Positions 26,750 to 54,344 of a stretch of DNA of 62,016 nt are shown here, piece after piece. The stretch spans positions 1 to 62,016 of the forward strand of contig JAFXIC010000033.1 in NCBI GenBank assembly GCA_017533485.1. Direction: 5' to 3'. This DNA is from Oscillospiraceae bacterium (lineage in GTDB: Bacteria > Bacillota > Clostridia > Oscillospirales > Ruminococcaceae). How positions within the stretch are numbered: position 1 is the first letter of the stretch; the number at the start of each line of letters is the position of its first letter. Position numbers and translations under genes: made by a program. The notes beneath the pieces were generated by a model that worked only from the letters and a program-made list of their open reading frames with translations, was not told the origin of the DNA and made no database searches.

Positions 26750-28270
26750 TCAGATCAGCTTTGCGATGCGTTTGATAATCAGTGTGGCATCCAGTGCGTT
26801 CACTTTTCCGTCACCGTTGACATCGGCACGCTCCTTCAGCGCGGAAGTGTCAATCGCACGCTGGGGGAGGAACTGATTGAGATCGAGAGAGGTGTCCTCC
26901 GCGGCAATGCGGCAGAGCAGAATGACATCCGAGATATCTGTGCTGTTGTCCGCATTGATATCACCCGCGTCTTCCGGAATCGTCAGCGGTGCAGTGGTTG
27001 TGGTGGTGGTAGTCGCGGTTGCGTTGTGTATGGATTCAATCAGACTGGAGCAATACGGACAGTCATCGCCGCCGGTGATATGTGTGGTGGTAGTTGTGGT
27101 CGTTGTTGTGCCGAAATAGTCCGATGTGATCTGCGGTGCATGGATAGAGAATTGGAGCGGCGCGATTTCCTTGTTCCATTCAGGAATGGTGTAATCGACA
27201 TATACGTATACGGCGTATTCATTCTTACCGGTATAGTAGTATGGATAGCCGGTTTCGATTTTGGAAATCTTATGGCTGACATCATGATGAATGATATTGA
27301 AGCGGCGTTCTTCGACGAGTACGATGTCGAGCGGGTGTTCATTAAAATCGAGCGGTTCGCCGCCGATGAACCAGAGATCGGGTTCTGTGCGGAATTCGAG
27401 ACGCACATCCATGAGTGCATTCGTACCGCGGTAGTTGCCATTTTCATCCCAGACGGGGATAGTGGCTTCGCTGACGCAGGTTGTTTCGACCGTTCCTTCC
27501 TGATATTCCGGATACTGGGAGGGATCGAGGGTAACAACCGGAACGATGTAGGGGATGGTGGTCATGGATGTTGTTGCGGTTGTGGTCGGGGTCGTCGGGA
27601 TTGTTGTGGTCATGATAAAGTCATCGGGCGCGGTCGTAACCATCGGGAGCGATTCATCGACGTCGACCGTAAAGCTGATGCAGCTTACGGATAAGTCGCA
27701 TTCGGTGAAATCATAAGTTGTGGAAAGTTCGATGGTGTAGGTGCCGGGGGTGTAGGGATCATAATCTGTCCATACATCAACCATACCTGTGACATCATGA
27801 TGCCATGTGTTAAAGCGGCGCTGTTCGACGACAACGAGCTTCATATCAGTCAGATCGAGCTTTTCGCCGACAGCATAGGTCATCTTCGGCTTTTTTTCGA
27901 GATAGAGATAGGCGTCAAAGATTGCATTGGTACCGCGGTAGCGGCCGTCCTCATCCCATACCGGAATATCGGAATCGCTGACGCAGGTTGTTGTGACGCC
28001 GGTGGAAGGTGCCGTCTCAAACGGCGGATAATCCGGTATGCAGTTGTTTGTGTCATAGGTGGTGCTGATACCGCTCAGGGATTCAAAGTAGCTGGAACAG
28101 CCGGGACAGCAGCCATAATCGTATGGGTCTGTTGTGATGGTCGTCATCCATGTTGTGGATTGGACAGGACTCGAAGTGGTTGTGGATAAGGCGGAGGCAG
28201 ATACTGCAAAGGCAGAAGTGCCGATGCAGAGTGCCGCAGCAAATCCGAGACAAAGCTTGTAGGGTTTCAT
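26750..28270 (-). CDS. Secreted dockerin protein with two repeated Ig-like modules
   Basis: 506 residues starting MKPYKLCLGFAAALCIG, a signal peptide, with a perfect AAAGGAGG upstream. Two homologous modules of about 110 residues follow. Each starts near IPVWDE-G-YRGTNA, has a YAVGEKLDL / FIGGEPLDF turn and a VVEQRRFNTWHHDV / LVEERRFNIIHHDV motif; the pattern resembles bacterial Ig-like domains. A CPGCSSYFESLSG segment precedes the first module and CPYCSSLIESIH follows the second. Thr-rich linkers separate the parts. The C-terminal dockerin has a degenerate first calcium loop (DINADNSTD), an unusually long inter-loop insert and a good second loop (DVNGDGKVN). It is controlled by tandem ECF-type promoters. 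No catalytic motif is seen. Confidence 0.9.
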   Translation of the reverse strand: MKPYKLCLGFAAALCIGTSAFAVSASALSTTTSSPVQSTTWMTTITTDPYDYGCCPGCSSYFESLSGISTTYDTNNCIPDYPPFETAPSTGVTTTCVSDSDIPVWDEDGRYRGTNAIFDAYLYLEKKPKMTYAVGEKLDLTDMKLVVVEQRRFNTWHHDVTGMVDVWTDYDPYTPGTYTIELSTTYDFTECDLSVSCISFTVDVDESLPMVTTAPDDFIMTTTIPTTPTTTATTSMTTIPYIVPVVTLDPSQYPEYQEGTVETTCVSEATIPVWDENGNYRGTNALMDVRLEFRTEPDLWFIGGEPLDFNEHPLDIVLVEERRFNIIHHDVSHKISKIETGYPYYYTGKNEYAVYVYVDYTIPEWNKEIAPLQFSIHAPQITSDYFGTTTTTTTTTHITGGDDCPYCSSLIESIHNATATTTTTTTAPLTIPEDAGDINADNSTDISDVILLCRIAAEDTSLDLNQFLPQRAIDTSALKERADVNGDGKVNALDATLIIKRIAKLI

Positions 28271-28336: not shown

Positions 28337-28363
28337 GACGGGATTTTCCATTGTTGCGTCACA
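28337..28363 (-). promoter_or_regulatory. ECF-sigma-type promoter P1 of the dockerin gene
   Basis: Minus strand TGTGAC (28358-28363), 17-base spacer, CGTC (28337-28340) followed by TATA. An A-tract/T-tract segment lies immediately upstream. The TGNNAC-17-CGTC layout is the pattern of extracytoplasmic-function sigma factors. The start codon is about 60 bases downstream. Confidence 0.65.
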
Positions 28364-28442
28364 TATTTTTAAAAATTTTTTTGGCGCGTATTTTCGTGAA
28401 AAATATGTCAGGCTGAAAAATATTTCCGCTTCTGTTTTAATA

Positions 28443-28469
28443 GACGGAAATTTTTTGAGATGCGTCACA
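28443..28469 (-). promoter_or_regulatory. ECF-sigma-type promoter P2 of the dockerin gene
   Basis: Minus strand TGTGAC (28464-28469), 17-base spacer, CGTC (28443-28446) followed by TATT, again preceded by A/T tracts. P1 and P2 share AGAAGCG just downstream of the -10, so they look like a tandem duplication. The 28271-28597 gap holds no gene. Confidence 0.6.
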
Positions 28470-28540
28470 TATTTTCCGAAAAATTTTTCTTCCTGTTTTT
28501 ATCGTACCACAGTTTGCGTTTCATTGCAAGGCTTTTCGAT

Positions 28541-28578
28541 AAAAATTCCCCCGATGCCATAAAACGGCATCGGGGGAA
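28541..28578 (-). terminator. Terminator of valS
   Basis: CCCCCGATGCC (28548-28558) pairs with GGCATCGGGGG (28566-28576). On the minus strand a T-run follows. Confidence 0.9.
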
Positions 28579-28597
28579 GCGGAAGGTTTCGATATTA

Positions 28598-31219
28598 TCA
28601 GGCTTTCCAGCTCTGGATAGATTCCAGTACCTTAGAAAGCTTTTCTTCTGCCTTTGCGAGTTTCTCGCGCTCTGCGGCAATGAGATGTGCCGGAGCTTTT
28701 TCGCAGAATCCGGGGTTATTGAGCTTGCCCTGAATGAAGCTGATGTCCTTACGAACCTTGGCTTCTTCCTTTTCGAGTCTTGCGATTTCCTTTTCGATAT
28801 CAACAAGCTGTTCCATGGGGATAAAGATACGTGCCGCATCCGTGACGACAGTGAGTGCATTCTTGAACTGATAATTCTGACCGAACTCCAGCTCGGACGC
28901 CGAAACCATATTCTCGAAGAACATGGAACAGGAGGAGAATACATCGACTTCCAGTGTTTCGAAATAGAGCTTTGCCTTTACAGAATTGGGAACATTCAGC
29001 TCGGTACGGCTCATACGGATTGCCTTGATCGCAGCGATGACCTTTTCGAAATCGGAAGCTGTTGCAGAGAAATCGAGGGCTTCGGAATAGGTCGGGAATT
29101 CTTCGAGCATAATCATGCTTTCGCCGTCTGTGAGCACCTGCCAGATTTCCTCGGTGATAAACGGCATGAACGGGTGGAGCAGCTTGAGCATACCGCGGAG
29201 GACATAGACCAGTACCTGTTCCGCGTCAGCCTTGCTCTGACCGCCGGCACGCATTCTGGGCTTTGTCAGCTCGATATACCAGTCACAGTATACATCCCAG
29301 ATGAAATCATAGAGCTTTGTGGAAGCGACGCCAAGCTCATAGTGGTCGAGGTTGTCGTTCACATCCTTTGCGAGCTGATTGAACTTCGAGATAATCCACT
29401 TATCTTCGATCGCAAGCTTTTCGGGGATTCCGGTGAACTTGAAATCATCCGGAAGATTCATCATAACGAAACGGGATGCATTCCAGAGCTTATTGGCAAA
29501 ATTACGTGCAGCCTTTACCTTATCGTCGGTAAAGCGCATATCATTTCCGGGAGAGTTTCCGGTTGCGAGCATAAAGCGGAGGGCGTCCGCACCGAAGTTA
29601 TCAATAATTTCGAGCGGGTCGATACCGTTTCCGAGGGACTTGGACATTTTTCTGCCCTGTGCGTCACGAACAAGACCGTGGATCAGGACAGTCTTGAACG
29701 GAACCTCATCCATATGTTCCAGACCGGCAACGATCATTCTGGAGACCCAGAAGGTGATAATATCATATCCGGTTACGAGGGTATCGGTGGGATAGAAGTA
29801 GCGGAGATCATCTGTCTTTTCCGGCCAGCCCAGTGTAGAGAACGGCCAGAGTGCGGAGGAGAACCAGGTATCGAGTGTATCGGGATCCTGACGCATTTCC
29901 TTTCCGCATTTCGGACAGACAGCCTTTGTGTCCTTTGTAACGACGAGCTCGCCGCAGTCATCACAGTAGAAGGCAGGAATCTGATGCCCCCACCAGAGCT
30001 GACGGGAGATACACCAGTCACGGATATCTTCCATCCAGTTGAAATAGAGCTTATCGAAGCGTTCGGGGACGAACTTGATTTTTCCTTCGCGCACTGCATT
30101 GATTGCCGGCTTCGCCAGCTCGTCCATCTTCACGAACCACTGGAGTGAAACTCTCGGCTCGACGGTTGTGCCGCAGCGATAGCAGGTTCCGACATTATGT
30201 GCGTGGGGTTCGACCTTGATGAGGAAGCCGCCGGCTTCGAGGTCAGCCACAATGGCTTTTCTCGCTTCATATCTGTCCATACCGGCATATTTCGGGTAAT
30301 CCTCGGTAATTTTTGCGTCATCGGTCATGACGTTCAGCACCGGAAGATTGTGGCGCTGACCAACCATAAAGTCGTTGGGGTCATGTGCGGGGGTAATTTT
30401 TACAACACCCGTACCGAATTCCATATCGACATATGCATCGGCAACCACAGGAATTTCACGTCCGACGAGGGGAAGAATGAGCTTTTTGCCGACTGCATTC
30501 TTGTAGCGTTCGTCCTTGGGGTTGACAGCAACCGCCGTATCGCCCAGCAGGGTTTCGGGACGCGTTGTCGCAAGCTCCAGATAGCCTGAACCATCTGCGA
30601 ACGGATAGCGGAGATGCCAGAAATGGCCTTCCTGTTCCTCATAGGTAACCTCGGCATTGGAAATCGAGGTGAGGCAGTGCGGACACCAGTTGATGATACG
30701 CTCGCCGCGGTAGATCAGTCCTTTTTCATAATACTTGACAAAGACTTCCTTAACGGCTTCGGAACAGCCCTCGTCCATTGTGAAGCGTTCGCGCTCCCAG
30801 TCACAGGAGGAACCGAGCTTCATGAGCTGCTGGTCGATTCTTCCGGCATATTTTTCTTTCCATGCCCATGCACGCTCCATGAAACCATCTCTGCCGATAT
30901 CATCTTTTGTGATACCTTCCTCGCGCATTGCGGCAACGATTTTGGCTTCGGTTGCGATTGCGGCATGGTCGGTACCGGGGAGCCAGTGGGTAGAATATCC
31001 GCTCATGCGCTTCCAGCGGATGAGGATATCCTGTAAGGTTTCGTCGAGGGCATGGCCCATATGCAGCTGACCTGTGACATTGGGCGGCGGGATCACGATG
31101 GTATAGGGGATTTTTTTCGGATCAACCTCTGCGTGGAAGCAGCGCTTTTCCATCCATCCCTGATAGATCCGGTCTTCAAACGAACTGGGGTCATAGTTTT
31201 TGGCAAGTTCTTTTGCCAT
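28598..31219 (-). CDS. valS: Valyl-tRNA synthetase
   Basis: An 873-residue class I synthetase. The HIGH motif appears in PPPNVTGQLHMGHALD (HMGH) and the KMSKS motif in GRKMSKSLGNGIDPLE. The editing domain lies between them (ATTRPETLLGDTAVAVNP, the typical TTRPET motif), and a C-terminal coiled coil (EKEIARLEKEEAKVRKDI...) is characteristic of ValRS. A zinc-type cysteine pair, CPKCG, is seen near residue 430. GGAGTG lies before the ATG. Expression is controlled by the T-box leader directly upstream. Confidence 0.98.
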   Translation of the reverse strand: MAKELAKNYDPSSFEDRIYQGWMEKRCFHAEVDPKKIPYTIVIPPPNVTGQLHMGHALDETLQDILIRWKRMSGYSTHWLPGTDHAAIATEAKIVAAMREEGITKDDIGRDGFMERAWAWKEKYAGRIDQQLMKLGSSCDWERERFTMDEGCSEAVKEVFVKYYEKGLIYRGERIINWCPHCLTSISNAEVTYEEQEGHFWHLRYPFADGSGYLELATTRPETLLGDTAVAVNPKDERYKNAVGKKLILPLVGREIPVVADAYVDMEFGTGVVKITPAHDPNDFMVGQRHNLPVLNVMTDDAKITEDYPKYAGMDRYEARKAIVADLEAGGFLIKVEPHAHNVGTCYRCGTTVEPRVSLQWFVKMDELAKPAINAVREGKIKFVPERFDKLYFNWMEDIRDWCISRQLWWGHQIPAFYCDDCGELVVTKDTKAVCPKCGKEMRQDPDTLDTWFSSALWPFSTLGWPEKTDDLRYFYPTDTLVTGYDIITFWVSRMIVAGLEHMDEVPFKTVLIHGLVRDAQGRKMSKSLGNGIDPLEIIDNFGADALRFMLATGNSPGNDMRFTDDKVKAARNFANKLWNASRFVMMNLPDDFKFTGIPEKLAIEDKWIISKFNQLAKDVNDNLDHYELGVASTKLYDFIWDVYCDWYIELTKPRMRAGGQSKADAEQVLVYVLRGMLKLLHPFMPFITEEIWQVLTDGESMIMLEEFPTYSEALDFSATASDFEKVIAAIKAIRMSRTELNVPNSVKAKLYFETLEVDVFSSCSMFFENMVSASELEFGQNYQFKNALTVVTDAARIFIPMEQLVDIEKEIARLEKEEAKVRKDISFIQGKLNNPGFCEKAPAHLIAAEREKLAKAEEKLSKVLESIQSWKA

Positions 31220-31257
31220 AGGGAATCACTCCTTTTCATAGATTTCCGATAGAAACA

Positions 31258-31595
31258 AAAACGTCCTGAACATAGGACAAATCGTCTATGTTCAGGACGA
31301 AGCTTTACGAATTGTAAAGTCCGCGGTACCACCTGAATTCAGCGGCTGCATATTTTTTTGCAGTCTGCTGCACTCTGCGGCAGCAAGAAAACTACTGCCT
31401 GTCCGCTCACGAGGGACGCCCGTCAAACAGTTGTCCGCAGTCGGTCAAAGGGGATGGAGGATGACCGGCTTCGGCTTTTCCATTCGCAGCTCGGAACGCG
31501 ACTTCACAGCCTGCACGGGAATGCTTTCACCAACCGCATTCTCTCTTGACCATGCCACAGCAGCTACTACTCGTTCGTCATAGCATTTTTCAGAT
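31258..31595 (-). promoter_or_regulatory. T-box riboswitch of valS
   Basis: Minus-strand leader of about 340 bases. The T-box core reads AGGTGGTACCGCGG (31321-31334). Just downstream lies a terminator, CGTCCTGAACATAG pairing with CTATGTTCAGGACG, followed by TTTTTG (31257-31301). Upstream, the ACGAGTAGTAG segment and a GGTTGGTGAAA loop match Stem I landmarks. GUC at 31502-31500 lies in the right part of Stem I to be the valine specifier codon. Uncharged tRNA-Val would stabilise the antiterminator and allow valS transcription. Confidence 0.93.
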
Positions 31596-31601
31596 ATCGT
31601 T

Positions 31602-31630
31602 ATTATAACAGAGATTTCAGATGCCGTCAA
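31602..31630 (-). promoter_or_regulatory. Sigma-A promoter of the valS T-box transcript
   Basis: Minus strand TTGACG (31625-31630), 17-base spacer, TATAAT (31602-31607). Confidence 0.88.
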
Positions 31631-31659
31631 GCTGTTTTGAGAAATTCGGCTTTCTGCAC

Positions 31660-31692
31660 AAAAACAAGGCTGCCCGTTTTGAGCAGCCTTGC
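31660..31692 (-). terminator. Terminator of ileS
   Basis: CAAGGCTGC (31665-31673) pairs with GCAGCCTTG (31683-31691), with a T-run on the minus strand. It separates ileS from the valS promoter. Confidence 0.87.
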
Positions 31693-31703
31693 AGTTTATT
31701 TGA

Positions 31704-34700
31704 TTATGCCTTTGCGATGGAGATGGTCATTGTGCCGTCAGCGGTTTCCACTTCGGAAGTTGCCGCAGGCGCTGTGACATCACCCATGGTTGCGAGTGTT
31801 TCCTTGCAGATATATTCCTCGAACATCTTGGGATAATTGCCGTCAATCCGGAGGATGATGCGGTCGGAAATCTCACAGCCGCTCTGTTTTCTTGCATCCT
31901 GGATATTACGGACAAGCTCTCTTGCGATGCCTTCGGCTTTCAGCTCCTCGGTAATGGTGAGGTCGAGGGAAACGACAACGCCGTGCTCGCTCATCACATG
32001 ACCGCCATCCTTTGCCTGATAGGTGACAAGGATAATTGACGGGTCGAAGGATTCTTCCGTGCCGTCGATTTCGAGGATTGCGGCATCATCGGTCAGTCTG
32101 AACTTACCGGATTTAATCGCCTTGATGAGAACCGGAACGCGGCTGCCGTAGTGTGTACGGATCGCCATGAAATCGGGTGCATAGCTGACGGAAGCGATCT
32201 CGGATACATCATCGACAATCTCAACCGTCTTGACATTCAGTTCTTCTGCGATGACATCGGTGAAATCGCGTACAACTGCCGCAGCTTCCTTTGAAGCGAG
32301 TGCAACGCGCAGGGTAGAAAGCGGCTGACGGTTCTTGATGCGGTTTTTATTTCTCAGCGAGTGGCTGAGGGAGATAACATTCTGTACCAGACCGATCTGA
32401 CCGAGGAGTTCCGTGTTCTCGTAGCAGCCGCAGATTTCGGGCCATTCTGCGAGGTGAACGGATTCCTTGCCGGTGAGGGTGCGGTAAACGAATTCTGACA
32501 TGACCGGAGCGACCGGAGCCATGAGCTTACAGGTGCTGACGAGGACATAGAGGAGGGTGTCGTAAGCATTCTTCTTATCCTCGGTCATGCCTTCGCCCCA
32601 GAAGCGTCTGCGGCTGCGGCGGATATACCAGTTGGTCATGCCGTCGATCAGAGCTGCGAGTGCATCGACATAGCGGTTGACCTGATAATCGTTCATATTC
32701 TCGGTAATGGTCTTGCGGGTCTGGTAGAGGAGTGCGAGCATCCATTTATCGAGCTGGTTTTCGGACTTCGGTGCCGGAAGGGAATCCGGACCATAGCCGT
32801 CGATATTGGCATAGGAAATATAGAAGTTGCAGGCATTCCAGAACGGGAGGAGAATCTGCTGGAGGGAATCCTGGAGACCGGATTCATCGAACTGGAGATC
32901 GCCGATGAGCATTGCGCCCGACTGATACATATAGAGACGGAAAGCGTCAGTGCCGTACTTCTTCATCAGATCCATCGGGTCGGTATAGTTCTTGGAGGAC
33001 TTGGAGAGCTTCTTGCCGTCCTTCGCGAGAACGGTACCGTGAACGACACAGTTGGAGAATGCGGGGCGGTCAAAGAGTGCGGTTGCGAGGACATGGAGAT
33101 AGTAGAACCAGCAGCGGATCTGACCGGTATATTCGACGATGAAATCACAGGGGAAGTGGGATTCGAACCATTCTTTATTTTCGAACGGATAATGCTTTTG
33201 GGCGAACGGTACACAGCCCGATTCGAACCAGCAGTCGAGCACTTCCGGAATTCTGTGCATCGTATGGCCGCATTCGCAGGGGAAGGAAATCTCGTCTACA
33301 TACTGACGGTGGAGGTTATCGAGGCGTACACCGCTCTTTTCCTCGATTTCATCAATACTGCCGAGCGCGATCCGCTTATGACATTCGTCACATTCCCAGA
33401 TCGGAATCGGGGTGGACCAGTAGCGGTTTCTGGAGATATTCCAGTCGCGGGCATTTTCGAGCCATTTTCCGAATCTTCCGTTTTTGACGGTTTCGGGAAC
33501 CCAGCGGACATCCTGATTGCGTGCAATGAGTCTGTTCTTGATTTTGTCGATATTGAAGTACCAGGCATTCATTGCCTTGTAGATGAGAGGCTGCTTGCAG
33601 CGCCAGCAGTGGGGGTAGTTATGCTCGATGGTACCGTCAGCAACCGCCTTGCCTGCATCGTAGAGGAAGCGGATGATTGCCGGGTTCATCTCGATGACAT
33701 TCTTGGTGTTTTCGGGGTCATAGAAATCGGTAATTTCTTCGGTGAAGCGGCCCTTTGCGTCAACCGGATTGACGAGCGGGATTCCCCATTTCTTACAGGT
33801 CCAGTAGTCATCCTCACCGAATGCCGGTGCGGTATGAACGATACCGACACCCTCGTCTGATCCGACATAATCTGCGGAAACGACCTTGAACGCGCCATTT
33901 TCCTTGAGTTCCGCGAAATAGGGGAACAGCGGCTCATAGGTTTTTCCGAGGAGATCCGTACCCTTGCATTCCTTCACGATCACAGGTTCTTTTCCGAAGA
34001 CTTTCGGGAAGTTTCCGAGGACATTCTTACAAGCGATGTAGATACCGTCCTCGACCTCGACATAGGCATAGTCGAGCTGTTCGCCGACAGCGAGACAGAG
34101 GTTCGAAGGGAGTGTCCAGGGTGTGGTTGTCCAGGCGAGGAAATAAACGGTCTTTTCGTTGATGATCTCATCGGTTTTGAAGCGTGCGATAATCCATCTG
34201 TCCTGACGCGGGCGGGTGGAGTCGGATTCACGCGTATCGGAAATAGAGAGGGATGTTTCACATCTTGTGCAGTAGGGGGTGACGCGGTAATCCTGATAGA
34301 TGAGGCCTTGGTCGTAGCACTGCTTGAATGCCCACATGACAGATTCCATGTAGGAGAGGTTCATCGTTTTATATGCGCCGTCGTAATCGACCCAGCGGCA
34401 CATTTCTTCGACATATTCTTTCCAGGCTTCGTTGTTGCCGGAAACGATGTCGTGACAGGCGTCATTGAATTTTGCGATACCGATGGTACGTTCGATGGCA
34501 GTTTTATCGTCGATGCCGAGTGCTTTTTCAGCCTGTGTTTCGATGGGGAGACCGTGACAGTCCCAGCCCCAGACACGCGGAACGGAATAGCCCTGCATCG
34601 TCCAGTAACGGGCGATCATATCCTTGATAAAGGAGACGAGAACCGTACCATGATGGGGCTTACCGGTCGGGAACGGAGGGCCGTCATAGAACACGACCTC

Positions 34701-34817
34701 GTTATCGCCTTTTTCACGCACCGAGCGTTCAAAGACATTATTTTCCTTCCAAAGCGCGAGCATTTCGGATTGGATTTTCGGCAAATCGGGTTTGCCTGCG
34801 AGCGGCTGATAATGCAT
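31704..34817 (-). CDS. ileS: Isoleucyl-tRNA synthetase
   Basis: About 1037 residues. MHYQPLAGKPDLPKIQ is taken as start because AAAGGAAG lies nine bases before it. It is a class I synthetase with the HIGH-equivalent in FPTGKPHHGTVLVS (HHGT in place of HIGH), the KMSKS-equivalent GKKLSKSSKNYTDP, the WGWDCHGLPIE motif and the editing-domain segment LAWTTTPWTLPSN. The long form and KLSKS variant fit the eukaryote-like type 2 IleRS, a group often insensitive to mupirocin; that property is inferred. It has no T-box: the promoter lies about 50 bases from the start codon. Confidence 0.97.
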   Translation of the reverse strand: MHYQPLAGKPDLPKIQSEMLALWKENNVFERSVREKGDNEVVFYDGPPFPTGKPHHGTVLVSFIKDMIARYWTMQGYSVPRVWGWDCHGLPIETQAEKALGIDDKTAIERTIGIAKFNDACHDIVSGNNEAWKEYVEEMCRWVDYDGAYKTMNLSYMESVMWAFKQCYDQGLIYQDYRVTPYCTRCETSLSISDTRESDSTRPRQDRWIIARFKTDEIINEKTVYFLAWTTTPWTLPSNLCLAVGEQLDYAYVEVEDGIYIACKNVLGNFPKVFGKEPVIVKECKGTDLLGKTYEPLFPYFAELKENGAFKVVSADYVGSDEGVGIVHTAPAFGEDDYWTCKKWGIPLVNPVDAKGRFTEEITDFYDPENTKNVIEMNPAIIRFLYDAGKAVADGTIEHNYPHCWRCKQPLIYKAMNAWYFNIDKIKNRLIARNQDVRWVPETVKNGRFGKWLENARDWNISRNRYWSTPIPIWECDECHKRIALGSIDEIEEKSGVRLDNLHRQYVDEISFPCECGHTMHRIPEVLDCWFESGCVPFAQKHYPFENKEWFESHFPCDFIVEYTGQIRCWFYYLHVLATALFDRPAFSNCVVHGTVLAKDGKKLSKSSKNYTDPMDLMKKYGTDAFRLYMYQSGAMLIGDLQFDESGLQDSLQQILLPFWNACNFYISYANIDGYGPDSLPAPKSENQLDKWMLALLYQTRKTITENMNDYQVNRYVDALAALIDGMTNWYIRRSRRRFWGEGMTEDKKNAYDTLLYVLVSTCKLMAPVAPVMSEFVYRTLTGKESVHLAEWPEICGCYENTELLGQIGLVQNVISLSHSLRNKNRIKNRQPLSTLRVALASKEAAAVVRDFTDVIAEELNVKTVEIVDDVSEIASVSYAPDFMAIRTHYGSRVPVLIKAIKSGKFRLTDDAAILEIDGTEESFDPSIILVTYQAKDGGHVMSEHGVVVSLDLTITEELKAEGIARELVRNIQDARKQSGCEISDRIILRIDGNYPKMFEEYICKETLATMGDVTAPAATSEVETADGTMTISIAKA

Positions 34818-34869
34818 AGCAGTCATCTTCCTTTCATATCCTGCTGAATTTAGGCTCATAGATACAATT

Positions 34870-34898
34870 ATTATAACATAACCGCGAAAGAATGTCAA
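34870..34898 (-). promoter_or_regulatory. Sigma-A promoter of ileS
   Basis: Minus strand TTGACA (34893-34898), 17-base spacer, TATAAT (34870-34875): a full consensus match. Confidence 0.9.
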
Positions 34899-34972
34899 GC
34901 CATAAATTTCAGCGGAAACGGGGCGGGAATCGGTTTGTCATCGGAATGTAAGATTCTGTAAGAAAATAGAAG

Positions 34973-35001
34973 TTGCAATAGAAAACGGAGTATGGTATAA
35001 T
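34973..35001 (+). promoter_or_regulatory. Sigma-A promoter of the MoxR operon
   Basis: TTGCAA (34973-34978), 17-base spacer, TATAAT (34996-35001). Confidence 0.87.
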
Positions 35002-35063
35002 GGTTATATTCTTTGCGTAATGCAGAGGCGAAACAAATTATCGAGAACAGGAGTGAACAAAAC

Positions 35064-36050
35064 TTGTATCAGGAAACAAAGCTGCTTTCTCCGAAGGACG
35101 CTGCATATATGGTGCAGGAGATTCTGCACGAGGTACGAAAGGTTGTTGTTGGAAAGGACATCGTGATTTTAAAGGTGCTGCTGGCGATTCTGGCGAAAGG
35201 TCATGTGCTGCTGGAGGATATGCCGGGCGTTGGAAAAACAACGCTTGCACTTGCCTTCGCCAAGATTCTCGACCTTGATTACCATCGTCTTCAGCTGACG
35301 CCGGATGTATTGCCGACAGATATCACAGGCTTCTCGGTTTACCGGAAGGATTCCGGAAGCTTTGAATTTAAAAAGGGAATTGCTTTCTGCAATCTGCTTT
35401 TGGCGGACGAGATTAACCGTACATCGTCCAAAACACAGGCTGCATTGCTTGAGGTTATGGAGGAGAGCAGTGTGACGGTAGACGGAACGACATATCCGAT
35501 GCCGACGCCTTACTGTGTGCTCGCGACACAGAATCCGATTGGCTGTGTCGGAACCCAGATGCTTCCCGAATCTCAGCTTGACCGCTTCATGCTTCAGCTT
35601 CATATCGGTTATCCTGATCTGGAGAGCGAGATTCAGATTATGCAGGCGCGCAGCAATACGAATCCGCTGGATGATGTGCGGCAGGTTGCAACGATTGATG
35701 ATCTGCTTGCGCTGCAAAGCGTCGTGGAGAATGTTCATGTTGCGGAGTCGGTCTACCGGTATATCGCAACGCTTGCCGAATCGACCCGCCACCATGAGAT
35801 GCTGCGGCTCGGCATTTCGCCGAGAGGATCGCTGGCATTGATTGCAGCTGCGAAAGCGGTTGCCGTAGTACGCGGCAGAGATTATGTGATTCCGGATGAT
35901 ATTTCGGTTGTGGTGCATGAGGTATTCGCCCACAGACTTGTACTGAGCTCCCGTGCGAGAATGGCAGGACTGAGTGCAGATGATATACTGGATGAGATTC
36001 TGGAGGCTGTCAGCATTCCGCCGCTGGAAAAGGACAAGAAGTCATGCTGA
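35064..36050 (+). CDS. MoxR family AAA+ ATPase
   Basis: About 328 residues. TTG at 35064 is the likely start because AACAGGAGTG lies just upstream; an earlier in-frame TTG has no site. It has Walker A MPGVGKTTLA (~53-61), the TPDVLPTDITGFSVY segment typical of MoxR, Walker B LLLADEINR (~110-118), sensor 1 ATQNPI and a lid domain with sensor 2 in RGSLAL. MoxR ATPases act as chaperones for maturation of complexes together with the DUF58 partner encoded next. The stop overlaps the next start. Confidence 0.94.
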   Translation: MYQETKLLSPKDAAYMVQEILHEVRKVVVGKDIVILKVLLAILAKGHVLLEDMPGVGKTTLALAFAKILDLDYHRLQLTPDVLPTDITGFSVYRKDSGSFEFKKGIAFCNLLLADEINRTSSKTQAALLEVMEESSVTVDGTTYPMPTPYCVLATQNPIGCVGTQMLPESQLDRFMLQLHIGYPDLESEIQIMQARSNTNPLDDVRQVATIDDLLALQSVVENVHVAESVYRYIATLAESTRHHEMLRLGISPRGSLALIAAAKAVAVVRGRDYVIPDDISVVVHEVFAHRLVLSSRARMAGLSADDILDEILEAVSIPPLEKDKKSC

Positions 36051-37252
36051 TTCCGAAAATCCTGTATGCAGTATTGTTGTGCATTCTGGTCATCTTTTGG
36101 ATTCTGTACCGTGGAACGCTCTCGCTGCAATTATTCATACTGGCTGCGGCGGTACCGTTTGTGATGCTGGGGATTGTGCTGATGCAGCGGTTTCTGTTGG
36201 ATGCGGCTGTACGGCGAAGCAGTGCGGAAGTCCGGAAGGGGGATACCTTCCAATGGATTTTACAGCTTCGCAATCGTTCTCTGATACCGGTATCCAATGC
36301 GGAGGTACAGCTGGAATACGGTTCGAATCTGGAGGGCGCTGCGCATCGGATGAAGCTAGGGGTTTCGCTTCTGTCGCTGAACACCCAGAAAGTCAAGCTG
36401 ACATTTCATGCCGGCACCTGTGGAATGATGGAAATGCGGCTTTGTTCGGTTAAAATTTATGATCCGTTGCGGCTGTTTTCCCAGACCATCCGCTTTCGGG
36501 CATCCGATACCTTTCTGGTCATGCCGGAATGTATGGAGCTGGAACTTACGGAACATCAGTTTTCGGAAGCGGCAGAGGAAGACAATCCGGAATATTCGAA
36601 GAATAAAAGCGGCGATGATCCGTCCGAAGTCTTTGAGATTCATGAATATCGTTCGGGGGATGCAGTTTCGCGGATTCACTGGAAATTAAGCTCCAAGCTG
36701 GACGAGCTGATGGTAAAGGCATACAGCCTTCCGATTCCGTCGAATACATTGCTGATGCCGGACTATCGGATGGTCGGGAACGGGGCTGACGGCTGTGCAC
36801 GCCTCGATACGATGCTGTCGGCAGTCTATGCGGTGTCAAACGAGTTCCGGAGCCAGAGTCTGTCGCATAGTGCGCTCTGGTATCGGAATGCACAGAATGC
36901 CTTTGCCGTCTGTCAGCTGACAGAGCCGGAGGATACGGAAGAGATGCTGCGCCAGATCTTACAGAACACGCCCTCCGATTATGATCCGGAAGCGATGCTG
37001 GATGTGATCGAACAGGAGGTTCGTGCGGCAAGAATCATACTCTTTACGCCGAAGCTGGATGACCGGCTGATTGCGCTGCTGCCGCAGCTTTCGAACCACC
37101 GTGCGCTCACGGTATTTTATGTGATTTCGGGCGGGGAATCCGAAGAACTTCCCGCCGGTGCGGAAGGATATGACTGTGTTCCGGTTCGGATATTGTCCGA
37201 ATCGCTGGAGGATGACAGCCACCCGGATCGGGAAGGAGAGGATGAATGTTGA
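36044..37252 (+). CDS. DUF58 domain membrane protein
   Basis: A 402-residue protein with two N-terminal membrane helices (about residues 8-25 and 28-48). The DUF58 signature lies around residues 200-228: EIHEYRSGDAVSRIHWKLSS. The region after it is von Willebrand A-like. The ATG overlaps the MoxR stop by seven bases, and its stop overlaps the next start in the same way, so all three are coupled. MoxR-DUF58-transglutaminase is a widespread arrangement of unclear physiological role, probably in envelope or export functions. Confidence 0.93.
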   Translation: MLIPKILYAVLLCILVIFWILYRGTLSLQLFILAAAVPFVMLGIVLMQRFLLDAAVRRSSAEVRKGDTFQWILQLRNRSLIPVSNAEVQLEYGSNLEGAAHRMKLGVSLLSLNTQKVKLTFHAGTCGMMEMRLCSVKIYDPLRLFSQTIRFRASDTFLVMPECMELELTEHQFSEAAEEDNPEYSKNKSGDDPSEVFEIHEYRSGDAVSRIHWKLSSKLDELMVKAYSLPIPSNTLLMPDYRMVGNGADGCARLDTMLSAVYAVSNEFRSQSLSHSALWYRNAQNAFAVCQLTEPEDTEEMLRQILQNTPSDYDPEAMLDVIEQEVRAARIILFTPKLDDRLIALLPQLSNHRALTVFYVISGGESEELPAGAEGYDCVPVRILSESLEDDSHPDREGEDEC

Positions 37253-39795
37253 AGCAGAAAACACTCAGACACGCCCTTCCGGAGAATGCTTCCGTACCGC
37301 TTCAGCTGCAGGACAAGATCTCTATGACCGTACAGCGTCGGTGGATGATTCCGAAACCGCTGATCCGGATCCTGATTGCGATGGTCGGCATATACAGCGC
37401 ATGGATGACACTGTATGGGTTTTACCGGTTCCCGATGAACCTGCGGACAGTCAGTGCAGCCTGTATCGGTTTTGCGGTGCTGTTCGGTGCGATCTGTCAC
37501 TTTCCGCGATGCCTGCGCGGGCTTGCCCAGATTCTTCTGCTGGGGCTGGAGGCAGCAATCTACCTGAAATGGGACGGATTTCTTGCAGGCTACCGCGCGG
37601 TCTATCGTACATTCTGGGAGCGGATCTGCAAACAGAAGCTGTCGGAAGTGAGCAATGCCCCCTGGGCGTCCGGCACGATGACGTCAACGGAGCTCTGGTC
37701 GGAAGAACAGTGTACGACATTTTTTATATGCTGTGTGATATTTCTTCTGGCGATGCTCGTGACATATTTTGTGAGTGTGCGGCCGAATTTTATCGTATGC
37801 TTTCTGGGAACATTTCCGTTTCTGGAATGCGGACTGCTGTTTGGATACCGGACGGATTCCATGTCTGTTTTCGGGCTGGCAGCATTCTGGATGGCGGTAC
37901 TGGCGATACAGTGTGCAAGCGGAAAACGATCCGGAAAAGAGAAAGATGATCTGATCCGCGTCGGGACAAAACCGATTGCGGCTGAATCAGCAGCGTTCTG
38001 GATGCTGCTGCTCGCACTCATCGGCGGCAGCTGGATTGTCCGGAAAACTGCGGATTATGAGCGAAGCGAAGCGATTGACGCAAAACGACTGGAACTTCGT
38101 GCGACATTCTCCAATCTGTCGGTGAATTCGGTAACAGAGATGCTGAGCCAGATTCCGCTGCCGTTTGAATCAGCAATGCTGGTGGACGAAATCGACCTGT
38201 CTTCCCGCGGCAATCTTCAGTTTGACGGAGCGGATGTGCTGACGGTAGAAATAAACGGGCCGGTTCCGGTTGCGGATTTTTACCTGAAAGGGATCTGCCG
38301 CAGTACCTATACCGGAAGCGGATGGACGCTCGATAAAAAGGCGCTGCGTCAGCAAAAAGAGCTGTTTGAAGCGTTGGAGAAAAAGGGACGCCTTCCGCAG
38401 ACGATGACGTATTATCAGCCTGTCGGCGAATCGGAATTGACGATGAAGATTGCGGCACTGCAATCGGAGCCGGTGAATTATCTGCCGTATTCCGCCGTCT
38501 ATGAGGGGATAGACTGTACGCCGATTGACCGTGCTGTTTATGATAGTGAAATACGGTTGAAAAGCCAGAAGAATTATGAGATCATGCTGGATCGTGCGTA
38601 TATTGCAAACGATGGCTGGGGCTTTGAAAAAGTGTCGCTGAGTCAGCAGAGCGTGCGTTCACCCGATCCCGATATGGCGGCTTACGAGGACTTTGCGCTT
38701 TCATACTATACGAAGCTGGACGAGCTGTCGCCGGAGCTTCAGACAGTCAGGGCGGATTTTCTCCGGAATCTCGAATACAGCGGCACCTATGGTTCTGTAC
38801 TGGAATATATCCGCGAATATATCTGGGCACAGGCGGATTATACGCTGAATCCGGGAGATACGCCGGAAGGAAAGGATCTGGCGGCATATTTTCTGACGGA
38901 AAACCACGCAGGCTATTGTGCGCATTATGCAACAGCCGCGGCACTGCTTTGTCGGATGGCAGGCATTCCCGCACGATATTGTCAGGGGTATGTTGTCCAT
39001 AAAACGGACCTCAACAATTCCAATTTTGATAAAGAAACCAACGGCTATCGGATTTCGGTTCCGAATTACCGTGCACACGCATGGGTAGAGATTTTTATTC
39101 CGATGTATGGCTGGCTGCCCTATGAGTTTACAGAGGGCGTGGAAGATTTCTGGTATTCGGCGGCTTTAGAGCCCGACTATCTTTCGAGTCTGACAGCGAT
39201 GACCTCGACGACGCTGCTCAGTACCACGACGACTACGACAACAACGACCACGACAACAACGACCGTCACCTCTGCTTCGCAAAGCAGCAATCCGACATCC
39301 GGTCATGGAAATGGCACAGATGATCCGACACCTATGAAAAAGCCGCTGCTGACAGCAAAACAAAAAGCCGTTCTGACCGCAGTGCTCCTGTGCGCGGCAG
39401 GCATCTGGCTCTTATGGATGCTGTTTCGTCAGAATCATTATCGGATTGTGCGGAAGCGAAAGCATCAGATGTTTTCTGCACAGGCGAATGACGCGGCGAA
39501 TACAAGCTATGCATTTTTGATGAAGCTGCTGCGGATGCAGGGCATCTCACAGGGCAATCGGACGCATGAAGCGTTTGCGGCGTATGCACAGCAAAAATGC
39601 GGTTTACTGCCGGAAGGCGCGATGGAAACGATTCTCTCGGTTCAGCAGGCGGTTATATTCGGAAACAGGGAAATTCCGCGTCAGGATGCCGAGAAGGTCG
39701 CAAAGCTTGTATCGGATTATGCGGCGGAGCTTTATGCGAAAGCAGCACCGCGTGAGCGGCTGAAACTTCGCTGGCTGTATCATATCGTTGCATAA
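37246..39795 (+). CDS. Membrane transglutaminase-like protein
   Basis: 849 residues. About five or six hydrophobic helices fill the first ~275 residues. The extracytoplasmic transglutaminase-like domain has the catalytic Cys in GYCAHYATAAALLCRMAG (~555) and His in YRAHAWVEIF (~608); the third position is Glu in WLPYEFTEG, as is common in this branch. A run of about 17 Thr residues with mixed codons (~660-677) joins it to a last membrane helix (~708-728) and a cytoplasmic DUF4129-like helical tail. A protease or cross-linking role outside the membrane is inferred. Last gene of the operon. Confidence 0.92.
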   Translation: MLKQKTLRHALPENASVPLQLQDKISMTVQRRWMIPKPLIRILIAMVGIYSAWMTLYGFYRFPMNLRTVSAACIGFAVLFGAICHFPRCLRGLAQILLLGLEAAIYLKWDGFLAGYRAVYRTFWERICKQKLSEVSNAPWASGTMTSTELWSEEQCTTFFICCVIFLLAMLVTYFVSVRPNFIVCFLGTFPFLECGLLFGYRTDSMSVFGLAAFWMAVLAIQCASGKRSGKEKDDLIRVGTKPIAAESAAFWMLLLALIGGSWIVRKTADYERSEAIDAKRLELRATFSNLSVNSVTEMLSQIPLPFESAMLVDEIDLSSRGNLQFDGADVLTVEINGPVPVADFYLKGICRSTYTGSGWTLDKKALRQQKELFEALEKKGRLPQTMTYYQPVGESELTMKIAALQSEPVNYLPYSAVYEGIDCTPIDRAVYDSEIRLKSQKNYEIMLDRAYIANDGWGFEKVSLSQQSVRSPDPDMAAYEDFALSYYTKLDELSPELQTVRADFLRNLEYSGTYGSVLEYIREYIWAQADYTLNPGDTPEGKDLAAYFLTENHAGYCAHYATAAALLCRMAGIPARYCQGYVVHKTDLNNSNFDKETNGYRISVPNYRAHAWVEIFIPMYGWLPYEFTEGVEDFWYSAALEPDYLSSLTAMTSTTLLSTTTTTTTTTTTTTTVTSASQSSNPTSGHGNGTDDPTPMKKPLLTAKQKAVLTAVLLCAAGIWLLWMLFRQNHYRIVRKRKHQMFSAQANDAANTSYAFLMKLLRMQGISQGNRTHEAFAAYAQQKCGLLPEGAMETILSVQQAVIFGNREIPRQDAEKVAKLVSDYAAELYAKAAPRERLKLRWLYHIVA

Positions 39796-39852
39796 GACAT
39801 CAGAATCAAATCCGGCATTCTTTTTTGCTGCATCTGTATTTCTGAATATTTC

Positions 39853-39900
39853 AAAAAAATCAGCCGACTGTACTGGGGGGAACAGTCGGCTGATTTTGTT
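39853..39900. terminator. Bidirectional terminator between transglutaminase and acyltransferase genes
   Basis: AAATCAGCCGACTG (39857-39870) pairs with CAGTCGGCTGATTT (39883-39896), with A- and T-runs on either side. Confidence 0.9.
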
Positions 39901-39913
39901 TATATCGGGGGGG

Positions 39914-41104
39914 TTAGCCGTCATGGGACGGTTCGGATGTTTTTTCCGGTTCTGCGGTTTGGGTTTGGGATTCTGCCGATGCAGACGTCGGAACGGGCAG
40001 CGGTGTTTTCGCCGCGGCTTCCGGTTCATCACTGATGGCGTTGATGGAACGGATACCGAGTACAAGTCCCTGATAGAGGAACTGGATGAGTATACCGCCG
40101 AGCATGGAGCAGGCAAAGATTTTAAAGATGACGGGTGTGAGATAATGGAGTCTGTCGGGGAAGGCATATTTTATGTTGTAGGGATCGTAGAACAGCTGAT
40201 CGAAGACATAGGAAATCAAGTAGCATCCAAGTGTTGCGCTTCCGAAGGTTTTCAGCATCCCACAGACAAAGCGGTTGGAGATACGGATATCGAAAAGCAG
40301 CAGGAAAATACCGGTTGCAGTCAGACATACGGGGAACGAGCCGTAGTCATTGAAGTGTTTTGAATAGAAGATATAGTTGTTTGCGATATTCTGCGTGGAG
40401 TCACGGAATGACGAGAGACTGAGCCAGAGGAGTCCGCCTGCAATCATACCGACCGCAAGGAGCTTCGAAATCAGCTTCTTTTTCGGCGGATATTCCCGGA
40501 AGTAACAGCCGATGAGGTGGTAGGCGAAGGGGTAGACGCGAAGAAAATAGCCCGGGAAGACTTTGAATTCATAGAGATCACCGGCATAGAAGGTCTGGGA
40601 ACAGATTGTGAGACACAGTACCGTCAGCACAAAAGCCAGATGATGCATTCGGGAGCGCAGTCCGTTCCATGCCATGTTGATAAAGGGGATGAGGAGGAAG
40701 ATACAGAGATAATACTCCACATACCAGGCATACGGTGCATTGGTGAACATAAACATACCCTTGACAATTTCGGGGAACGTATAGGTTACGTGATCATGCA
40801 CCGACTGGAAGATGATACAGATACAGCTTGCAATCAGGTAGACAAATAAAACCGGCAGCAGCCCCAGATAATATTTTTTGGAAAGCGTTTTATTCTTTGT
40901 GAGATAGCCCGTACACATCATAAAGAGCGGTACACAGGTATAGGAAAGCCACCGCATGGTAATTGCCGGTATTTCAATGGGGTCATTGGGGATAGAATAG
41001 CTATAATATCCGGTATTATAAAAGCTGTGGATGCCGATGACAAACAGTGCGGCAAGGATTTTTATAATGTCGATGCCGGCGAGACGTTTGGAATTTGATG
41101 CCAT
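39914..41104 (-). CDS. Acyltransferase 3 family membrane protein (OafA-like)
   Basis: A 396-residue protein with about ten hydrophobic helices. It starts with the acyltransferase-3 signature: GIDIIKILAALFVIGIHSFYN (catalytic His in the first helix region), followed by CVPLFMMCTGYLT. Such enzymes O-acylate cell-wall or surface glycans or exported peptides. The C-terminal ~45 residues are a Pro/Ala/Thr/Glu-rich cytoplasmic tail that is not part of the family. Its upstream region contains the third copy of the ECF-type promoter shared with the dockerin gene at 26750-28270. The glycan substrate is unknown. Confidence 0.93.
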   Translation of the reverse strand: MASNSKRLAGIDIIKILAALFVIGIHSFYNTGYYSYSIPNDPIEIPAITMRWLSYTCVPLFMMCTGYLTKNKTLSKKYYLGLLPVLFVYLIASCICIIFQSVHDHVTYTFPEIVKGMFMFTNAPYAWYVEYYLCIFLLIPFINMAWNGLRSRMHHLAFVLTVLCLTICSQTFYAGDLYEFKVFPGYFLRVYPFAYHLIGCYFREYPPKKKLISKLLAVGMIAGGLLWLSLSSFRDSTQNIANNYIFYSKHFNDYGSFPVCLTATGIFLLLFDIRISNRFVCGMLKTFGSATLGCYLISYVFDQLFYDPYNIKYAFPDRLHYLTPVIFKIFACSMLGGILIQFLYQGLVLGIRSINAISDEPEAAAKTPLPVPTSASAESQTQTAEPEKTSEPSHDG

Positions 41105-41187
41105 TTACACTCCTCCGTTTTTCATATGTTTTATATCATACCACAGCGGATGTACAAAGTCAATCCCCCGTGTTTTTCTTATGTATA

Positions 41188-41214
41188 GACGGAAAAACGA
41201 AACGCTGCGTCACA
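41188..41214 (-). promoter_or_regulatory. ECF-sigma-type promoter P3 of the acyltransferase gene
   Basis: Minus strand TGTGAC (41209-41214), 17-base spacer, CGTC (41188-41191) followed by TATA, preceded by AAAAAAATTTTTC-type tracts. It matches P1 and P2 in every fixed position and lies about 80 bases from the start codon. Confidence 0.65.
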
Positions 41215-41270
41215 TATTTTTTGAAAAATTTTTTTGTGTGCCGATGTGTGCCGAAATCCGCGAAAAGCTA

Positions 41271-43347: not shown

Positions 43348-45540
43348 ATGAAACAGATTTTTCCGGTCGCAGGTATGACTTGTTCGGCTTGTGCGGCAAG
43401 AATCGAACGAAAGCTTCGCAAACAGTCGGGTATCCTGACGGCGGATGTGAATTTTGCGATCGAACAGCTTACGGTTGAATATGACGAACAGGCGATTACG
43501 GAAGCACAGATTCGGGAATGCGTTGAAAAAATCGGATATCAGCTGCCGCTCCCGACCACGGAAAAACCAAAGCTTACGATGCATCAGAAGCTTTTGTACC
43601 GGCTGATCGGATCGCTCTGCTTTGCGGTACCGCTGCTGTTGATCAGTATGGGTCATATGGTCGGGCTGCCGCTGCCGCGTGCGGTATCTCCGGATGTGCA
43701 TCCGCTTGCGTTTTCCTTGCTGCAGTTCTTTCTGACGATTCCGCCTGTGGTGCTGGGATTTCCGTTTTACCGTGCCGGAATCCGGAATCTGCTGGGACGG
43801 AGCCCGAATATGGACAGTCTGATTGCGGTCGGCACACTTTCCGCCCTGATTTACAGCCTGTATGCGGTGATTCGGATTGCCGGCGGTCAGACGGAATATG
43901 TGCATAGTCTGTATTTTGAATCGGCAGCCATGATTCTGACGCTGATTACACTCGGAAAGCTGCTCGAATCGAAGGCGAAATCCAAGTCTGCCGAAGCGAT
44001 CAAAGCCCTTTCTTCCCTTGCACCAAAGCTTGCGAGTGTACTCGATCACGGAACGGAAATCCAGATGAAGCTGGAAATGGTTCGCGTTGGAATGATCTTG
44101 CTGGTACGTCCGGGCGAGAAAATTCCAACGGACGGTGTTGTGCTGGAGGGAAGCTCCTCATGCGATGAGTCGATGCTGACGGGAGAAAGCCTGCCGGTCG
44201 ATAAACAGGAAGGGGATTCGGTAACCGGCGGTACCCTGAATGGCATGGGAATGCTGAAAATCCGCGCAGAAAAAGTCGGTGCGGATACTGCGCTTGCCCG
44301 TATGATCCAGATGGTCGAGGAAGCACAGGGCAGAAAAGCACCGATTTCCCGTCTGGCAGATCAGGTCGCGGCATATTTTGTGCCGACCGTCATCGTGCTG
44401 GCATTGCTGGGCGCAGGTATCTGGGCGATTTCTGGTGCGTCCGTACAGTTCGTACTTCAGATTTTTATTTCGGTTATGGTCATCGCTTGTCCTTGTGCGC
44501 TGGGGCTTGCGACGCCAACAGCCATTGTGACGGCAACCGGAAAAGGTGCGTCTATGGGCATACTGTTCCGGGGGGGCGATACCCTCGAACAGGCACGGCG
44601 TGTGGATACGATTGTCCTCGATAAAACGGGAACGCTGACCGAGGGAACACCATCCGTCGTTGGGGTATATCCGAAGAATATGGATGCGCGGCTGCTGATG
44701 CAGCTTCTGGCTTCTGCTGAGGCGGCATCGGAGCATCCGCTGGCAAAGGCAATCCGCAGCTATGCGGAGGAACAGGAGATCTCCTTTGCGGAATGCACGG
44801 ATTTTCGTGCAGATACAGGTTTTGGTGTGTCGTGCAGTACGGACGGAAAAAAGCTTTTGGTCGGAAGTCCGCGTTATTTGCTGTCGCATGGGATTGCGGT
44901 GGATGAAACGCTGGTGACGGAAATCACATCCGCCGGTGCAACGCCGGTGCTGCTGGCAGCGGACGGTGCATTCTGCGGCGGTGCGGCAGTCGCTGATACG
45001 CTGCGAGCGGAAGCGGTGGAAGCTGTCCGGGCACTCAGAGAACAAGGGCTGAATGTTGTGATGCTGACGGGCGACCATCATCAGACGGCTGCTGCGATTG
45101 CAAAGAAAGCCGGAATTGACACCTTTGTCGCAGAAGTGCTTCCGAGCGGAAAAACCGAGGAAATTGCGAGGCTCCAGTCGGAAGGCAGATGCGTGATGAT
45201 GGTGGGTGACGGTATGAATGACGCGCCCGCACTCGTACAGGCGGATATCGGAACAGCCATGGGCAGCGGTACAGATGTTGCGATGGAAAGTGCAGATATT
45301 GTGCTGATGCGATCGGATTTGCGGCTGCTGGCAGACGCGCTCGATCTCAGTAAACGGACCGTGCGGAACATTAAGGAGAATCTTTTCTGGGCATTCGGCT
45401 ACAATTGTCTTGGGATTCCGATTGCGATGGGCGCATTATATCCCGCGTTCGGCATCCTTCTGAATCCGATGATCGGAGCGGCTTGCATGAGCTTCAGTTC
45501 GGTGTCGGTATTGCTGAATGCACTGCGGCTGAGGAGGTAA
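43348..45540 (+). CDS. copA: Copper-translocating P1B-type ATPase
   Basis: A 730-residue heavy-metal ATPase. It has a single N-terminal HMA domain with [12 protein letters not shown] (residues 9-20), the actuator TGES motif ([11 protein letters not shown]), the transmembrane metal site [12 protein letters not shown], the phosphorylation motif DKTGTLTEG, the nucleotide-binding SEHPLAKAI and the hinge [19 protein letters not shown] plus the HMA CxxC identify a Cu(I) exporter. AAAGGAAGG precedes the ATG. The dGTPase-like gene follows after six bases. Confidence 0.96.
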
Positions 45541-54156: not shown

Positions 54157-54344
54157 GCGTTTTTCAAAAATTTTTTTCACTGGGCAGAGTAGGGGGGCGG
54201 AAGATCCTTCGTTTCAGCCGCCTGCGGATTCCGGAAATCACAAAAAATGGTCAGAATCCATGCTAAGGCGCACAGAAAAACATGGGAAAAATCGGGAGAT
54301 TTCTGGTGAAATGGTGAAGATTTGGGGAAAAGCCTGTGATTTGC

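Follow-up and report, generated by a model that had tools for sequence, protein, structure and literature searches.

Three copies of one sequence element in a 62,016-nucleotide stretch of DNA from an Oscillospiraceae bacterium (contig JAFXIC010000033.1; the whole stretch is called the window here) are very probably promoters of a small, autoregulated ECF/anti-sigma regulon that comprises an Ig-like dockerin protein and a membrane acyltransferase. The sequence-level support shown here consists of the motif itself, a site before a sigma gene, the layout of the sigma operon and the recurrence of these elements in a second species. ECF/anti-sigma regulons are known in kind; what is new here is this particular regulon.

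On the minus strand of the window, TGTGAC-N17-CGTC occurs exactly at 28337-28363, 28443-28469 and 41188-41214, as a sequence-only reading of this DNA had stated. Altogether, the window contains four matches to this short motif versus 0.11 expected, and none of 100 shuffles reached four. The fourth match (44526-44552, plus strand) was absent from that earlier reading. It falls within a 730-aa open reading frame for a heavy-metal P-type ATPase (Pfam: HMA, E1-E2_ATPase) and has 34% A+T upstream. We consider it chance-like. The conserved element at the other three positions is TGTGACGCA-N13-CCGTCTAT, always on the minus strand. Two copies stand in tandem, 106 bp apart, before the dockerin gene, where the distal promoter P1 (28440-28469) ends 169 nt and the proximal promoter P2 (28334-28363) ends 63 nt before the ATG. 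The third (41185-41214) ends 80 nt before the ATG of the acyltransferase gene. These distances agree with the 60-170 bases reported previously. The spacers had been described as differing freely, and the remaining spacer and the flanks are indeed unrelated, but the conserved block is longer than assumed, so that the 17-base spacer is partly constrained.

All three copies are preceded by the A-tract/T-tract that had already been noticed, which reads A5-7T5 and is accompanied by an A-rich stretch ending in TA. Only six tracts of A4T4 or longer occur in the window, and three of them are those at the motif copies. Just upstream of the -35 element, 13 of 14 positions agree with the UP-element consensus AAAWWTWTTTTNNNAAA (as given in the available excerpt of PMC2412878) at each of the three sites, namely in the tracts of P1 (28470-28488), P2 (28364-28382) and the acyltransferase promoter (41215-41235, all minus strand). 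A fraction of 0.0005 of the window positions reached this score, as did 2 to 6 out of 2000 shuffles with the same base composition. UP elements are bound by the alpha subunit of RNA polymerase, and such near-consensus copies should strengthen the three window promoters. Separately, an A5T7 tract was seen at 54166-54177, 5' of a small minus-strand membrane ORF that looks SecG-like by eye; inspection by eye revealed no ECF-type -35/-10 at this tract.

The dockerin gene (26750-28270, minus strand) encodes an Ig-like protein of 506 aa with a signal peptide, recognized by eye, and a C-terminal type I dockerin (Pfam Dockerin_1, E 1.2e-10). Its Big_3 match is weak and below the cut-off (E 0.012), and Pfam detected no catalytic domain in it. 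The acyltransferase gene (39914-41104, minus strand) encodes a membrane protein of 396 aa (Pfam Acyl_transf_3, E 9.1e-27), which may act on a surface glycan, as the sequence-only reading proposed. Sigma-A-like promoters, of which the earlier reading had none, exist at both genes. TTGCAA-N17-TACGAT (28501-28529, minus strand) lies upstream of P1 and was found by eye, not being part of the promoter scan output. TTGACT-N17-TATGAT (41135-41163, minus strand) was found by the scan in the interval from the ECF promoter to the acyltransferase start codon. The ECF input therefore probably comes on top of basal expression. For xylanase genes of C. thermocellum, a dual SigA/SigI6 arrangement is reported. 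An intrinsic-terminator-like hairpin (28546-28578, minus strand) 3' of valS (28598-31219, identified by Pfam) should keep valS transcription from running into the dockerin gene.

With 11 cohesin and 78 dockerin matches, the genome to which the window belongs (G000; 2.1 Mb, 88% complete) is probably that of a cellulosome-type organism. Since the exact motif was found to precede a single dockerin gene in this genome, the element is not a general cellulosome switch.

The sequence-only reading took the 10-base motif as sufficient, which did not hold genome-wide: TGTGAC-N16-18-CGTC matched 16 times in G000 versus 10 times for the reversed control, and the short form is thus near background. The extended form proved specific. 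Allowing up to three mismatches, the 17-base pattern gave 20 matches in G000 versus 6 control matches; no mismatch was found at the three window sites only, two mismatches at one site on contig C21 only, and three at sixteen sites. The 17-base spacing was fixed in all scans except one own-genome scan that allowed 16-18, and there every long-form site had 17. We inspected all sixteen three-mismatch sites and claim none of them. In every case an open frame of no fewer than 244 codons runs through the site, which by itself is not decisive as long frames also cross some accepted sites, and the upstream A+T content was 26-71% versus 63-86% at the nine accepted sites.

With three mismatches, the 15-base core was at background in G000 (44+36 versus 38+45 for the reversed control) and in G012 (57+39 versus 51+55), a congener represented by the public MAG JAKSPL01 from horse faeces. 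Exact 15-base cores, by comparison, occurred six times in both genomes together versus about 0.008 expected under even base use, and each of the six is followed closely by a gene in the same orientation. Among 61 genomes scanned with at most one mismatch, five contained matches (G000, G012, G008, G011 and G023). The single matches in the last three are within open frames, have an upstream A+T content of 46-49% and were set aside as chance-like, and a scan of viral contigs gave no match to the extended motif. We aligned nine sites, four from G000 and five from G012, with the coding match at 44526 excluded. Pairwise identity was 94% in the core, a value raised by the motif-based selection of sites, so that the weight rests on which genes follow the selected sites. 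It was 37% in the spacer, 39% upstream and 31% downstream, and these low spacer and flank identities exclude the duplication of a longer segment.

An ECF sigma gene with the same promoter, which the sequence-only reading had proposed to look for, is present on C21. The two-mismatch site (G000:C21:17381-17410, minus strand) starts 52 nt upstream of the ATG of this gene (G000:C21:16798-17358, minus strand) and stops 22 nt short of it. The 187-aa gene product matched PF04542 and PF08281 (regions 2 and 4) above cut-off and TIGR02937 with 76.6 bits (cut-off 42.9). Sigma-2 and sigma-4 are the only promoter-binding domains of this protein and of its G012 orthologue, in keeping with the definition of ECF (group IV) factors in the available excerpt of PMC8103513. 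The C21 gene is one of 16 sigma-region-2 matches in the genome. None of the 16 lies on the window contig, just as no sigma gene had been noticed in the window before, and the extended motif (at most two mismatches) was found upstream of the C21 gene only. In both G000 and G012, a target-type promoter begins at -52 relative to the sigma ATG, the arrangement expected of an autoregulated gene; positive autoregulation is common among ECF factors but not required of them. We infer that the C21 sigma factor reads the three window sites.

Alternatively, these promoters could be read by, or shared with, another ECF factor of the genome, for example that of C44. Its gene (L050) has TGTGACTTTTTCGGATAGATTCCGTTAATAG upstream, that is TGTGAC-N16-CGTTAA with the same -35 hexamer, and overlap among B. 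subtilis ECF regulons is mentioned in the available excerpt of PMC6056542. However, the C44 site has a spacing of 16 instead of 17, a -10 of CGTTAA instead of CGTCTA and no GCA after the -35. Together with the confinement of the extended motif to the C21 gene among the 16 sigma-domain genes, these differences make a reading by C44 or a similar factor unlikely, and we retain the C21 factor as the one that would act on the window.

The ORF next to the C21 sigma gene starts within the sigma stop codon (ATGA overlap). It consists of about 40 residues, a strong hydrophobic segment, a Ser/Thr-rich stretch of about 200 residues and, at the C-terminus, some 75 further residues. This partner protein matched no Pfam or NCBIfam family in G000 and no Pfam family in G012. 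In both species the ORF overlaps its ECF gene and encodes a hydrophobic segment, and in neither did it match a recognised family of anti-sigma factors. We examined 33 distinct ECF places, leaving out 10 own sigma genes for which tblastn gave no match. At all 33, the longest ORF that begins near the end of the sigma gene contained a 19-residue stretch with a mean hydropathy of at least 1.7. Position, layout and these similar neighbours at all 33 places suggest that the partner is likely an anti-sigma factor, which would inhibit the sigma factor and cross the membrane once. Structure prediction of its outer C-terminal part (two sequences) gave no confident fold, with a mean pLDDT of 39. Directly before the sigma gene lies a VanY-like gene in G000 and a 71-aa Cro/C1-type HTH gene in G012. 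Matches to the C21 ECF protein were found in 30 of 30 genomes of the genus, with 2 to 37 per genome, many of them with a membrane-protein neighbour.

In G012, the ECF orthologue (71%) is preceded by TGTGACG-N15-CCGTCTAT with 0 mismatches and the same start at -52, despite the differing upstream gene. The promoter is also found at the G012 orthologues of the acyltransferase (58%) and the Ig-like dockerin protein (36%). The genes for the ECF factor, the dockerin protein and the acyltransferase thus all carry it in both species, in support of the earlier proposal of a regulon that joins the latter two. Other G012 genes with a site are a BspA-LRR/Big_3/dockerin gene and a radical-SAM operon, and two further promoter-like sites with two mismatches lie at C3:25336 and C23:10632. 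Besides its radical-SAM gene, the radical-SAM operon encodes a small protein with a C-terminus that appears dockerin-like by eye, without a Pfam dockerin match. As the orthologue of the radical-SAM gene in G000 (89%) lacks the motif in its 260 upstream bases, we rejected this operon as part of the core regulon, and the regulon content is not fully conserved.

Acyltransferase matches were obtained in 26 of 30 congener genomes (29 places), with the motif promoter in G000 and G012 only. Among the 61 genomes scanned with at most one mismatch, the regulon is apparent in no more than two species. The acyltransferase genes of G026 and G005 have exact TGTAACC-N16-TGTCTATATAAG upstream, and G021 shows a looser form by eye. 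Across the nine sites, the UP score was 13 at five and 7-10 at the others, so a full element is clear at only five of nine. The site of the own sigma gene on C21 scored 7/14, a value reached by 1965 of 2000 shuffles, and the sigma, dockerin and acyltransferase sites of G012 scored 10/14, reached by 409 to 727 of 2000.

As a side observation, a radical-SAM/SPASM-type protein lies beside a small repeat protein at L062:71-1688 (G012:C23) and at G000:C1:523-1494 (L152). Its best NCBIfam relative is the PapB ranthipeptide maturase (107.5 bits versus a cut-off of 340). The small protein has repeated Y-E-I-G-T-T-T-like units and, by eye, a C-terminus resembling a dockerin (again without a Pfam dockerin match), and is possibly a RiPP-like modified surface protein; similar neighbours occur in G015, G025 and G029. 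In open-licence literature, we found no description of dockerin, radical SAM and RiPP together.

Could the motif instead be the bipartite site of an ordinary transcription factor, with sigma-A promoters driving both genes? Sigma-A-like promoters do exist at both window genes. Yet the halves of the motif are neither palindromic nor direct repeats, and CGTC at -10 next to a UP-like tract resembles a promoter. The element also precedes the ECF sigma gene in two species, where the 22 nt left to the ATG are too short for a sigma-A promoter, and the own-genome scan at spacings of 16-18 returned long-form sites at 17 only. We therefore give this explanation little credence. That the motif represents chance or copied repeats without function is so very unlikely that we dismiss it: the 10-base motif is near background genome-wide and two copies are just 106 bp apart, but spacers and flanks are unrelated, the sites are kept at orthologous genes in a second species, the next-best G000 site is the ECF sigma gene promoter on C21 and the G012 sigma gene has a perfect core at -52.

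If the three motifs are promoters of an ECF/anti-sigma regulon, as we favour, RNA polymerase with one ECF sigma factor, encoded at C21, would read them all. The membrane partner would hold the sigma factor until an outside signal frees it, and the membrane location and anti-sigma-like nature of this partner suggest that the signal may come from the envelope. The freed sigma factor would activate its own operon (positive autoregulation), whose promoter has little of an UP element, as well as the Ig-like dockerin gene through its two tandem promoters and the membrane acyltransferase gene. Sigma-A-like promoters would supply basal expression of both window genes, with the ECF input being additive. 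A non-catalytic dockerin protein would in this way be tied to a membrane acyltransferase via one signal.

Compared with known ECF (group IV)/membrane anti-sigma regulons, the system is alike in having regions 2 and 4, a predicted membrane neighbour, an autoregulatory promoter, a -10 of CGTC and few surface genes. It differs in its -35 TGTGAC (GAC, not AAC), in the near-consensus UP elements at the window targets, in a partner with a Ser/Thr-rich stretch of about 200 residues and without a known anti-sigma domain, and in its targets, a dockerin protein and an acyltransferase. According to the available excerpt of PMC8103513, AAC in the -35 and CGT in the -10 were an early hallmark of ECF promoters that was later dropped as defining. 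At our sites the CGT of the -10 fits, and the -35 has GAC for AAC in the nine aligned sites, which were selected with that motif. In Bacillus subtilis, SigW, SigX and SigM act on ECF promoters at cell-envelope genes, and in this respect the systems resemble each other. We know of no dockerin targets in the SigW, SigX and SigM regulons, and the C21 protein scored 56 bits against the SigW equivalog, far below its cut-off of 209.

SigI/RsgI of Acetivibrio (Clostridium) thermocellum would act alike, with a membrane partner that has an outer part, autoregulation, control of dockerin genes and promoters combined with sigma-A promoters (available excerpt of PMC6056542). Nevertheless, the regulon is not a member of the SigI/RsgI type. 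Its C21 protein retains sigma-4, where SigI factors have a SigI-C domain instead, and there was no SigI model among the matches listed for it; in addition, the partner is without a Pfam match and the promoters are of another type. SigI promoters carry AAAA at the 3' end of the -35 and CGAA in the -10 (same excerpt), whereas our sites read TGTGACG and CCGTCTAT. A comparison of all 16 own sigma-domain proteins with NCBIfam revealed one SigI-like protein (L052, on C46), with an E-value of 8.6e-43 against TIGR02895, below the cut-off of that model. In the accessible portion of open-licence literature, we found no description of ECF control of dockerin genes in Ruminococcus or Ruminococcaceae. According to the excerpt of PMC6056542, C. 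thermocellum has 7 ECF sigma factors and P. cellulosolvens at least 22. Many ECF factors beside SigI are thus already known in cellulosome producers, which counts against the distinctness of an ECF-based system.

A bolder reading, which we regard as tentative and rather doubtful, is that expanded ECF/anti-sigma pairs in this cohesin/dockerin-rich genus switch small sets of scaffold-bound surface genes, by analogy a counterpart to SigI/RsgI. Each pair would have its own -35/-10 code, partly with UP elements, and would sense the outside. When 10 congeners were searched for TGTAACC-N16-TGTCTATATAAG with at most two mismatches, five matches were obtained versus one for the reversed control. Two of these belong to the acyltransferase genes of G026 and G005. 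In G009 the match begins 67 nt before an ORF that looks like an ECF sigma gene by eye, in G007 it reads TGTGAC-N17-TGTCTATATAAG with an A6T7 tract and precedes the gene of a secreted protein in which a dockerin-like calcium motif can be recognized by eye, and in G022 it is without such context. Three of the 28 ECF genes examined (G000, G012 and G015) are preceded by the strict ECF pattern TGNRAC-N15-18-CGTC, and many of the others show an A/T-tract plus a TGTAAT-type sequence upstream by eye. These patterns may point to several paralogous ECF codes that serve surface genes. We also observed a TGAAGCGCTTCA palindrome, possibly an operator, just 3' of the presumed -10 upstream of L072, L073, L074, L085 and L086; looser forms occur at other sister ECF genes, and it was not seen at the own C21 gene.

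Using sequence data only, our analysis links a small regulon to one particular ECF sigma factor of an uncultured bacterium. Should pairs of this kind prove general in the genus, they would hint at how cohesin/dockerin gut bacteria that have few SigI factors adjust their surface machinery, and they would offer ready sigma/promoter pairs for testing.
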